Shown here one piece after another: positions 42,743-46,496 of a stretch of 53,404 bases of DNA; positions within the stretch are counted from its first letter, which is position 1; every line of letters begins with the position of its first letter. Under the pieces are notes generated by a model that was not told the DNA's origin, made no database searches, and saw nothing but the letters and a program-made list of their open reading frames with translations. Position numbers and translations under genes: made by a program. This DNA comes from an uncultured Bacteroidota bacterium (GTDB lineage Bacteria; Bacteroidota; Bacteroidia; JABEUT01), in assembly GCA_903916255.1 (NCBI GenBank), contig CAIWVW010000057.1:1-53404 (forward strand). The letters run 5' to 3'.

Positions 42743-45673
42743 TTGAAGAAAATCATTTTCCTTTCGTTTCTTTCGTTTTACGCAGTAAGCATTTTTGCAC
42801 AGCAAAGAAACCTTACCCAATATATAAACCCCTTTGTAGGAACTGCTGAGCACGGGCATACATTTCCCGGCGCATGTTATCCTTTTGGCATGATGCAACT
42901 AAGCCCCGATACCCGCCTCTCCGGCTGGGATGGCTGCTCGGGCTACCATTATTCCGACAGTGTTATTTATGGTTTCACACATACACACTTGAGCGGCACC
43001 GGTTGCTCCGATTGGGGTGATATTTTATTGATGCCGGTTTCTGTAATTTATAATGCAAAAACTCCCGCAGGTGAAATTATTGGTTCCTATTCTTCAGGTT
43101 TTTCACATAAAAATGAAACCGCAACAGCCGGATATTATTCTGTTTTGTTGCACAATGGAAGTATTAAAGCGGAGTTGACGGTAGGTGAACGGGCCGGGAT
43201 TCACCGCTACACCTATCCTAAAAAAGATTCCTGCATAATAGTGCTCGATTTGCAGCACCGCGATGAAGTGCTTGGCTCCGAAATTACTTTTGTCAGCGAT
43301 ACGGAAGTCTGCGGCTACCGCCGCTCCAAAGCCTGGGCTACTGACCAGGTTGTTTACTTCGATATTCGGTTTTCAAGGCCAATTGCAAACAAGCAATTGT
43401 TTCAGGATAATAAGCTGATTGCACTTAAAAAGGATTATACCGGGAAAAATATAAAAGTTGTTTTTGGTTTTAAACATAGCGATAAAATTCTTGTGAAGGT
43501 TGGAATCTCGGGAGTAAGTGCCACGAATGCCGCGCTTAATCTTACCTCCGAAGTTCCTGCTTGGGATTTTGAAGCATTGCAACATAAAACAGAAGCTGCC
43601 TGGAATGAGTATCTGAACAAATTGCAGGTTTCTTCCAAAGATAAAAACCTGTTGGTTACATTTTATTCCGCGCTATACCATACCGCTATTCACCCAAGTT
43701 TATATACCGATGTAAATGGAGAATACCTTGGCCGCGATTTGAAAATGCACATAGCCAAAGGATATAATGTGTACACTGTTTTCTCGTTGTGGGATACCTA
43801 TCGCGCCGAACATCCGATGCTTACCTTAATAAAACCTTCACTCGATTTGCAATTTATACAAACCTTTTTGCGGCAATATGAACAAGGCGGAAAGTTGCCC
43901 GTGTGGGAACTTTCGGCAAATGAAACAAACTGTATGATTGGCTATCATTCCGTTCCCGTAATAGTAGATGCTTACATGAAAGGCATTCGCGGATTTGATG
44001 CGGAAGAGGCGCTGAAAGCCATGAAACATAGCGCCGAAGCGCGATGGAGAGGATTGCATTCTTTCCGCAGCTATGGTTATATTCCATCGGATAAGGAGCG
44101 TGAATCAGTTTCTAAAACATTGGAATATTCATATGATGACTGGTGCATTTCGCAATTTGCAAAAGCACTGGGCAAGCACGAAGATTACTTGGAATATAAA
44201 TTGCTTGCGGAGAATTATAAAAACCTTTTCGACCCAACAACAGGCTTTATGCGGGCAAAGGCAAACGGCGCATGGTACAAGCCGTTCGACCCGAGAGAGG
44301 TTGATTTTAATTATACCGAAGCCAATGCGTGGCAGTATACGTTCAATCCTCCGGATGATATTAGCGGCCTGATTACACTATATGGCGGCAAAGAAAAAAT
44401 GGCATTAAAATTAGATAGCCTTTTTCATGTTTCTTCTAAAACTACGGGTAGAGAACAGGCCGATATAAGCGGTATGATTGGCCAATATGCACAAGGCAAT
44501 GAACCCAGCCACCACATGGCTTTCCTGTTTAATTATTTAGGGCAGCCGCAAAAAACGGTGGAATATGTTAGACAAATAGAAGCTATGTACACTTCGGGCG
44601 CTGACGGCTTATGCGGCAATGAAGATTGCGGACAAATGTCGGCATGGTATGTAATGGCATCTATTGGGCTTTATCAGGTTTGCCCGGGCGATAACCAGTT
44701 TTCTATTACTACTCCTTTGTTCGATACCGTGAAAATAAATATGGAAAATGGGAAATCATTCTCCATTATTTCACATACAACAAAACCGAATGCCAAATAT
44801 ATCAACTCCGCAAAACTTGATGGCGCAGACCATAAGCAATCATTTATTCCGTATGAAAAAATAACCAAAGGCGGAACCCTCGACTTGAATGTGGATGAGG
44901 AAAGCTATGGCACATGGGGCACAGGCAATAATGTTCCAGTTGATTCATTAGGTTATAATGATGTGGTTCCGGAACCCTATTTTGAAAATGGAACAACTAC
45001 TTTTTCCGATTCAATACAAGTTGCATTGAAAGGCTATTCAAAACACGATACTATTCACTATACCATTTTCGATTCAGCTATGGGGGTAGCACCAAAACAA
45101 TATACCAAGCCTTTTTATTTAACGCATACAGCTTGTGTTATGGCCTGGCTTACCCGTGATGGCAAAGGCAGTATGGAGAATTCCGGTTGCTATACCAAAA
45201 TTCCTAAAGGGAGAAAAATCCGGTTAGCGTCACCTGCCGATAAACCATATACTGCCGGAGGGCCGGGTGCGTTAATTGATTACCAGCATGGCAGCGCTGA
45301 TTTCAGCACAGGAAGCTGGGAAGGTTTCGATGGAAAAGATTTTGAGGCTGTTGTAGATTTAGGAAGAATCGAACCTGTGAAAAAAGTTGCAGCCGAGTTT
45401 TTGCAGGACGTGGGCAGTTGGATAATGATGCCGAAATACGTAGATATTTTTATTTCTACCGACAGCATTAATTACAAACCTGTAATGCATAAGGTAAATA
45501 CCTTCCCCGATAATGATTATGCGGCTAGCATTCAATCATTTGGAATTGATATAGCCCCACAAAATGCCCGTTATGTAAAAGTATTTGCCAAAAACTATGG
45601 AAAATTACCAGCCTGGCATTTGGGCGCCGGAGGCGATTCGTGGGTATTTATCGACGAAATAACTGTGGAGTAG
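42743..45673 (+). CDS. GH92 family alpha-mannosidase with C-terminal CHB_HEX-like and F5/8C-like domains
   Basis: A 976-residue secreted enzyme: signal peptide (MKKIIFLSFLSFYAVSIFAQ), GH92 N-terminal beta-sandwich (YINPFVGTAEHGHTFPGACY, FGMMQLSPDTRLSGWDGCSG, HTHLSGTGCSDWGD) and (alpha/alpha)6 domain with the signature GNEDCGQMSAWYV near residue 625. GH92 enzymes are calcium-dependent exo-mannosidases acting on N-glycans and yeast mannan. Two added C-terminal modules appear: a chitobiase C-terminal-type unit at about 755-820 (FSDSIQVALKGYSKHDTIHY) and an F5/8 type C-like carbohydrate-binding unit at about 840-975. The start codon is TTG. Placed right after the GT4 gene, it may trim or degrade mannose-containing glycans, but a SusCD pair is not present. 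Confidence 0.92.
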   Translation: MKKIIFLSFLSFYAVSIFAQQRNLTQYINPFVGTAEHGHTFPGACYPFGMMQLSPDTRLSGWDGCSGYHYSDSVIYGFTHTHLSGTGCSDWGDILLMPVSVIYNAKTPAGEIIGSYSSGFSHKNETATAGYYSVLLHNGSIKAELTVGERAGIHRYTYPKKDSCIIVLDLQHRDEVLGSEITFVSDTEVCGYRRSKAWATDQVVYFDIRFSRPIANKQLFQDNKLIALKKDYTGKNIKVVFGFKHSDKILVKVGISGVSATNAALNLTSEVPAWDFEALQHKTEAAWNEYLNKLQVSSKDKNLLVTFYSALYHTAIHPSLYTDVNGEYLGRDLKMHIAKGYNVYTVFSLWDTYRAEHPMLTLIKPSLDLQFIQTFLRQYEQGGKLPVWELSANETNCMIGYHSVPVIVDAYMKGIRGFDAEEALKAMKHSAEARWRGLHSFRSYGYIPSDKERESVSKTLEYSYDDWCISQFAKALGKHEDYLEYKLLAENYKNLFDPTTGFMRAKANGAWYKPFDPREVDFNYTEANAWQYTFNPPDDISGLITLYGGKEKMALKLDSLFHVSSKTTGREQADISGMIGQYAQGNEPSHHMAFLFNYLGQPQKTVEYVRQIEAMYTSGADGLCGNEDCGQMSAWYVMASIGLYQVCPGDNQFSITTPLFDTVKINMENGKSFSIISHTTKPNAKYINSAKLDGADHKQSFIPYEKITKGGTLDLNVDEESYGTWGTGNNVPVDSLGYNDVVPEPYFENGTTTFSDSIQVALKGYSKHDTIHYTIFDSAMGVAPKQYTKPFYLTHTACVMAWLTRDGKGSMENSGCYTKIPKGRKIRLASPADKPYTAGGPGALIDYQHGSADFSTGSWEGFDGKDFEAVVDLGRIEPVKKVAAEFLQDVGSWIMMPKYVDIFISTDSINYKPVMHKVNTFPDNDYAASIQSFGIDIAPQNARYVKVFAKNYGKLPAWHLGAGGDSWVFIDEITVE

Positions 45674-45700
45674 GCACTTGCCTGAAAAGCGGCTTTTTTC
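45671..45700 (+). terminator. Possible weak terminator after the GH92 gene
   Basis: AGGCA/TGCCT with a two-base loop, then AAAAG-CGG-CTTTTTT, directly after the stop codon. Two short stems rather than one long stem, so the call is weak. Confidence 0.35.
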
Positions 45701-45719
45701 CTCAAAAAATGCCCTTTTT

Positions 45720-45770
45720 TACCATTCACCGCCAAAATCCTACCATTCAATAAATAAATCCTACCATTCA
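45720..45770 (+). promoter_or_regulatory. Three direct repeats TACCATTCA with 21-bp period
   Basis: TACCATTCA occurs at 45720-45728, 45741-45749 and 45762-45770, so the units are 9 bp with 12-bp spacers and a period of two helical turns. LytTR-type response regulators bind direct repeats of this kind (about 9 bp, 12-13 bp spacing), and ACCATTCA resembles their core. The binding protein is not known. Confidence 0.6.
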
Positions 45771-46005
45771 ATAAATGGTGGTTGTAATATATGGTTTAAT
45801 TATTTTTCTTTGTCAGGAAGCAATTTAAACAATATGTACCCCCGCGTTAAAGTTAATACCTATAATATCCGATTCACGATTTTAAGCTTTTGCCTTGAGA
45901 TATATCTATCCTTACCTTTATTTCCACCTTTAACTGCGCTTCCGGCGAGGGCTTCAACGGAAACGCGAAAAAGGATTAATGGATATTGGTGAGACTGCCG
46001 ATTCC

Positions 46006-46051
46006 CCTGCCGCAACGAATAGTCATGACATAAACTTAATGTTGCGGCGGG
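46006..46051. other. Hairpin with 11-bp stem in the GH92-panD gap
   Basis: CCTGCCGCAAC (46006-46016) pairs with GTTGCGGCGGG (46041-46051) with one G-T wobble; the 24-base loop contains GTCATGAC, itself a palindrome. No T-tract follows, so it is not a classical terminator. Confidence 0.5.
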
Positions 46052-46133
46052 TCCGGTTGGTTTAAAATACAGATTAATAACTAGTTTTCCAGACCTTTAG
46101 TTAGTTGCCTGTCGGGCTTCCGACAAATTTGTC

Positions 46134-46141
46134 TAATTTTG
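46134..46141 (+). promoter_or_regulatory. -7 promoter element TAATTTTG before panD
   Basis: TAATTTTG matches TAnnTTTG and lies only 7 bases before the panD ATG at 46149, giving a very short leader. A TTG lies about 26 bases upstream, longer than the usual spacing. Confidence 0.45.
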
Positions 46142-46148
46142 CAGCCCT

Positions 46149-46496
46149 ATGTTGTTAACTATCTTAAAATCAAAACTCCACCGTGTCCGGGTTACCGAGG
46201 CTAACATCAACTACGTTGGAAGCATTACTATTGACGAAGACTTAATGGACGCTGCCAGCCTTTTGGAAAACGAGAAGGTGCAGGTGGTCAATATAAATAA
46301 TGGTGAAAGGCTTGAAACCTATGTAATTAAAGGCCCAAGGGGTTCCGGAATAATTTGTTTGAATGGACCTGCCGCACGTAAAGCATTGGTAGACGATTTG
46401 GTAATTGTTATTTCCTACGCCCTTATGACACCGGAAGAAGCCAAAACCTACGAGCCTGTTTTGGTTTATCCGGATAGCCAGACGAACAAATTGTAA
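46149..46496 (+). CDS. panD: Aspartate 1-decarboxylase
   Basis: A 115-residue protein matching pyruvoyl-dependent PanD over its full length. The self-cleavage site is Gly24-Ser25 (NYVGSITID), Ser25 becoming the pyruvoyl group; Lys9 (ILKSKLHRV), Tyr58 (ETYVI) and the block [14 protein letters not shown], all part of the active-site surroundings, are present. It makes beta-alanine from aspartate for pantothenate and coenzyme A. It is followed after 79 bp by the flippase-like membrane gene; the gap holds an AT-rich inverted repeat. The PanD maturation factor PanZ/PanM of enterobacteria is not expected in this phylum. Confidence 0.96.

Follow-up and report, generated by a model that had tools for sequence, protein, structure and literature searches.

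Which protein reads three identical 9-bp direct repeats placed between two genes of an uncultured Bacteroidota bacterium, and what is transcribed behind them? The initial annotation of this locus proposed a LytTR-type binding site in front of a possible promoter and left the target unclear, since the gap that follows held no known gene. In the window analysed here (the whole stretch of DNA, 53,404 nucleotides long; coordinates of features inside it refer to its + strand) the gap is indeed found, at 45674-46148, between a gene for a GH92 glycosidase (42743-45673) and panD (aspartate 1-decarboxylase, PF02261, 46149-46496), and a conserved RNA-like element inside it is now the proposed target. 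The reading developed below, which we consider reasonably probable, is that the repeats are the operator of a LytTR-type activator, that this activator serves a regulon of cargo genes of type IX secretion (T9SS), and that the product at this locus is a conserved RNA. Control of T9SS cargo genes in Bacteroidota is little known, unlike control of the secretion machine, and literature searches for LytTR together with T9SS, or together with direct repeats in Bacteroidetes, returned nothing on point.

Results and Discussion

A class of triple arrays at a fixed distance from a promoter box

The three repeats, exact copies of TACCATTCA, are located at 45720-45728 (unit 1, distal), 45741-45749 (unit 2) and 45762-45770 (unit 3, proximal), with the phase of exactly 21 bp originally described; all are on the + strand, and the window contains no further exact copy. 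Units 2 and 3 share an identical 21-bp unit (TRF, 45735-45776, period 21, 100% matches). Other exact 9-mer triplets at a single period of 10-60 bp were not found in the window, and 60 first-order Markov simulations produced none at these periods. The array has the format of LytTR-type repeats (units of about 9 bp, spacers of 10-13 bp).

In order to look for further copies, as the initial annotation had suggested, the two-unit pattern was searched in the genome of origin (G000, 3.74 Mb) and the matches were aligned. They share conserved spacers (such as CCGCCAAAAACA and CTCAATAAAACC), and their alignment revealed triple arrays, followed by ATAAATGG and then by TTTG. A profile trained on 12 arrays (R1) retrieved 23 arrays at E<0.003, including 11 that had not been used for training, so the array in the window is not a one-off; the lack of other genomic copies, which would have spoken against the initial proposal, is thus not what the genome shows. 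Both this array and the 22 others aligned with it have 9-bp units and 12-bp spacers, the average unit being T(A/G)CC(A/G)T-N-(C/T)A; every spacer contains an A-tract. The ATAAATGG element (45771-45778 in the window) comes after unit 3 in nearly all arrays and forms a partial inverted repeat with it. At 45761-45781, unit 3 and the bases that follow give a partly covarying inverted repeat, CTCCCATTTA-A-TAAATGGGAG, with matching inverted repeats in other arrays (CCAC..GTGG and CTGCC..GGCAG), which suggests an extra inverted half-site.

The possible promoter, annotated about 39 bp past the repeats, corresponds to a predicted -7 box, TTTCTTTG (45805-45812, placed by the array alignment), whose TTTG starts 38 bp after unit 3; the consensus for this box in Bacteroidota sigma-A promoters is TAnnTTTG (PMC9723704). 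The distance is a property of the whole class: in 18 of the 23 arrays the distance from unit 3 to TTTG is 37 or 38 bp (P about 1e-26), a feature outside the stretch covered by the array profile, and most arrays of three relatives (G002, G003 and G007) have TTTG at 36-38 bp. Transcription would start near 45818, about 6 nt past the -7 box, which would place the end of unit 3 near -47. In LytTR-activated promoters the direct repeats are mostly 12 bp apart and about 10 bp upstream of -35, as in the LytTR Regulatory Systems HdrRM and BrsRM, where the regulator gene is autoregulated (PMC6193735); those systems have two repeats and a membrane inhibitor protein, whereas the array here has three repeats. 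The 37-38-bp TTTG spacing, with the start taken as above, gives the same fixed position of about 10 bp before -35, and the arrays would be the activator region of one promoter class, with the geometry of LytTR-activated promoters.

In mechanistic terms, we infer that the three repeats serve as operator for a sigma-A promoter that depends on an activator and belongs to a class of about 23 in this genome. The 9-bp units all face the same side of the helix, where a LytTR-family regulator would most likely bind them, and, with the proximal unit ending at about -47, the bound regulator would help RNA polymerase at the TAnnTTTG promoter.

Genes behind the arrays and distribution of the class

The gene that follows the array encodes a T9SS C-terminal sorting domain and a signal-peptide-like start in 17 of the 23 cases (if a 10% background is assumed, the binomial P is about 1e-12; the genome has at least 150 T9SS C-terminal domains). 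The window locus is one of the exceptions, together with a lipoprotein, an outer-membrane receptor-like protein, another secreted protein, a 147-aa LytTR-like regulator and a tiny ORF. In the latter case (L039:4008-4300, +) only the tiny ORF (MDSFYRKIVCAIIVAVITVVFG...) lies downstream of the array, with no ordinary target gene.

A second profile, made from the 23 arrays (R2), was used on the relatives. Within the genus it found 13 arrays in G002, seven in G007, five in G003 and two in G004, with a single weak match in each of G001 and G009, whereas G005, G006, G008 and G010 had none; elsewhere in the class the matches were few and all weak. The four array-rich genomes form one clade, and predicted secreted proteins are encoded downstream of most arrays in the relatives as well. 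Judging from these genes, the regulon would consist mostly of T9SS-exported surface proteins, and it can be predicted from sequence alone, because about two dozen promoters share one readable operator. A related theme is the regulation of the T9SS in Bacteroidota by PorXY-SigP (cited in PMC9723704), in which an ECF sigma factor acts on the secretion machinery, while the promoters described here have sigma-A type -7 boxes and serve mainly cargo genes.

Candidate regulators

As for the proposed LytTR assignment, unit length, spacer and position of the -7 box all fit, but a comparison by eye shows TACCATTCA to differ from the classical LytTR consensus. LytTR operator sequences do diverge from that consensus (PMC6193735). 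RcoM-1 and CoxC provide documented cases of triple LytTR operators, with three direct repeats that lie about two helical turns apart, like those of the window, and that a LytTR domain reads (PMC11347149). The spacers of RcoM-1 measure 12-13 bp (PMC11347149), compared to 12 bp here. Those two systems differ from ours in the unit (TTCNNGCA, 8 bp, instead of TACCATTCA, 9 bp) and in being CO-sensing regulators of cox genes in Proteobacteria; moreover, CoxC is a repressor with an operator that overlaps the -35, unlike the present array. The E. coli site of BtsR (YehT), with ACC[GA]CT[CT]A-N13 repeats, resembles ACCATTCA-N13, and its operator has two repeats and different targets (pyruvate transport).

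The genome contains eight classical LytTR matches. It also has three genes of a divergent LytTR group, a stand-alone one and two with a REC fusion (L034:3324-3767, -; L050:1150-1869, +; and L051:1162-1875, +). These three genes are missed by the Pfam LytTR model at its cut-off; the group is LytTR by profile comparison (hhalign 93.6%, E 2e-7), and one homologue in it scores above the Pfam cut-off. A predicted secreted protein gene lies after each of the three. The initial proposal is further favoured by what surrounds the divergent LytTR genes in the genus, since 21-bp triple arrays flank them in 7 of the 28 regions tested, against about 0.1 expected. The unit sequences differ among these seven arrays, one of which is a TACCATTCA array, and the relatives' differing arrays, together with the divergent LytTR genes beside them, are possibly regulator-operator pairs with different specificities. 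Arrays with other units are seen on both sides of the regulator gene at L085, upstream at L091 and downstream at L083, and the one downstream of the gene at L095 reads CTTGTTACA-N12-CTTATTACA-N12-CTTGTTACA. This divergent LytTR family, several members of which have 21-bp arrays of their own and adjacent secreted proteins, would make a LytTR specificity code testable.

Two arrays of the class precede LytTR-family genes themselves (the 147-aa stand-alone gene in G000 and a truncated REC gene in G002), and LytTR-family genes are the only regulator genes seen directly behind arrays. The gene in G002 (L138:494-750, +) is a REC-LytTR gene that keeps only about 28 codons before it runs into a histidine-kinase-like fragment, and it looks like a pseudogene or an assembly join. 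The 147-aa protein was considered as the sole reader of the arrays and not accepted, given that no TACCATTCA array precedes its orthologue in G003 and that G002 (98% complete, 13 arrays) has no close orthologue; other repeats are instead found downstream of this gene and of its orthologue. Phyletic profiles and co-occurrence were also tried, and no single gene stood out; with all four array-rich genomes in a single clade, presence and absence cannot point to one regulator here.

Direct repeats with a phase close to 21-22 bp are found in certain AraC-family and PhoB operators, too. The operator could accordingly be read by another binder of direct repeats (AraC/XylS, hybrid two-component AraC or OmpR/PhoB), with the promoter class and its targets unchanged, and the fact that no one regulator gene is singled out in the array genomes leaves room for this. 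We nevertheless regard such a reader as unlikely: direct repeats with 12-bp spacers, placed some 10 bp ahead of -35, follow the LytTR pattern (PMC6193735), triple arrays of the same 21-bp phase flank divergent LytTR genes in the genus, and no other family of regulator is encoded right behind an array. A LytTR protein is thus the favoured reader, on the strength of these sequence comparisons.

A conserved RNA-like element behind the array

The locus, made up of the GH92 gene, the array and about 300 bp after it, recurs in G007, G003 and G002, where it contains a sequence in common with the genome of origin. Comparison of the four genomes delimits the conserved core of a candidate RNA (model R3) at 45920-46071. 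Folding and alignment place in it a first hairpin, H1 (45927-45974, loop region AGGGCUUCA), and a second one, H2 (46006-46051), formed by CCTGCCGCAAC...GTTGCGGCGGG (CCUGCCGCAAC...GUUGCGGCGGG); between them lies an invariant GGTGAGACT (45988-45996), and GGUGAGACU is likewise invariant in the core. The loop of H2 contains a self-complementary palindrome (GTCATGAC / GUCAUGAC, 46022-46029), invariant in the four species, and this GUCAUGAC loop could allow loop-loop dimerisation of the RNA. Matches to possible antisense targets of the H2 loop in its own genome were no commoner than for a reversed control.

The core occurs once in each of G000, G002, G003 and G007, always behind the array and the GH92 gene. 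Among 295 genomes of the class, the R3 covariance model detected these four at 136-154 bits (a weak match in G044, at 26 bits, was taken as chance), and a pattern scan of genomes from 84,980 species found the RNA only in these relatives; viral contigs and plasmids gave no match. The four genomes that carry it are those richest in arrays, a co-occurrence that may reflect a single event in one clade. Conserved sequence and structure are found together, at an orthologous place, in several species (four genomes). The folding of the core beats all but 1 of 200 shuffles (z -2.8), while that of the whole transcript does not stand out (z -1.7). In H2, 98% of the cells are paired. Over the four-sequence alignment the paired cells amount to 90%, against 30-50% when the sequences are slid, and 131 of 500 shuffles also reach 90%; four base pairs have both sides changed among the four sequences. 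Covariation in the RNA does not rise above the level of the shuffles and is no more than suggestive. Rfam covariance models gave no match at the gathering threshold on the window, and none at E<=10 on 45780-46160. Considering these comparisons, the element in the gap is probably a structured, non-coding RNA, previously undescribed and absent from Rfam.

It might be argued that array and RNA are remnants, the promoter having once served a T9SS gene, now decayed, of which a conserved stretch was left over. Nearly all other arrays do precede protein genes, and the RNA is limited to one clade; however, the four species conserve the core far more strongly than its flanks, and it is single-copy at an orthologous place and has in all four genomes an intact array with the 38-bp spacing in front of it, which makes decay a very improbable explanation. 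Control of panD by the array, through a long structured leader, is just as hard to sustain. Although panD directly follows on the same strand in G000 and G007, it has a -7 box of its own (TAATTTTG, 46134-46141), placed 7 nt ahead of the ATG and also conserved in G007; in G002 an ORF on the opposite strand lies between the RNA and panD, and in G003 a different gene follows the RNA. These three observations argue that the RNA is not a panD leader, and panD is not our proposed target.

A more substantial alternative, though still a doubtful one, is that the array here drives a short peptide gene of 52-59 codons, by itself or within a dual-function RNA, and that the hairpins beyond its stop codon are the structure of the 3' end. 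In the window an ORF of 52 codons (45834-45992) ends at a UGA inside GGUGAGACU, and ORFs of 52-59 codons running to this conserved UGA are present in three of the four copies of the RNA (G000, G002 and G003), in each of which the ATG is about 21-32 nt after the -7 box; shuffled sequences contain such ORFs in only 0.1-1% of cases each. The peptide is however poorly conserved (23-42% identity), the conserved GGCTTCA falls in differing frames, no such ORF exists in G007, and the strongest conservation lies beyond its UGA, where the 1- and 2-nt indels make the most conserved part of the core unlike coding sequence. Owing to the poor conservation of the peptide and to its absence from G007, the ORF (possibly a leader or peptide ORF) is kept only as a rival or as a dual function of the RNA.

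Under our preferred reading, in which the product of the locus is the structured RNA, a transcript of roughly 250 nt would carry the two-hairpin core towards its 3' end. This RNA, which has no relatives in Rfam, appears to be part of the same programme as the T9SS cargo regulon; it would be made in step with the exported proteins, and is plausibly a regulatory RNA of that programme.

RNAIII, the product of the P3 promoter, acts as a structured regulatory RNA and in addition codes for a small peptide. In the agr system of Staphylococcus aureus, the LytTR regulator AgrA acts at P3 on direct repeats upstream of the promoter (PMC4227749), which is similar to what we propose here. The agr system has two repeats and a Firmicute host, whereas there are three repeats here, and neither RNA nor operator is related in sequence; the likeness would thus be one of mechanism and not of membership, with the RNA function and the regulator of the present locus only proposed. 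As a speculation to which we give a rather small chance, an agr-like logic might operate in Bacteroidota, a LytTR protein acting through 21-bp triple arrays on T9SS surface proteins and on an RNA that tunes them. The RNA would then found a new family, whose members might dimerise by way of the GUCAUGAC loop and also encode a short peptide.
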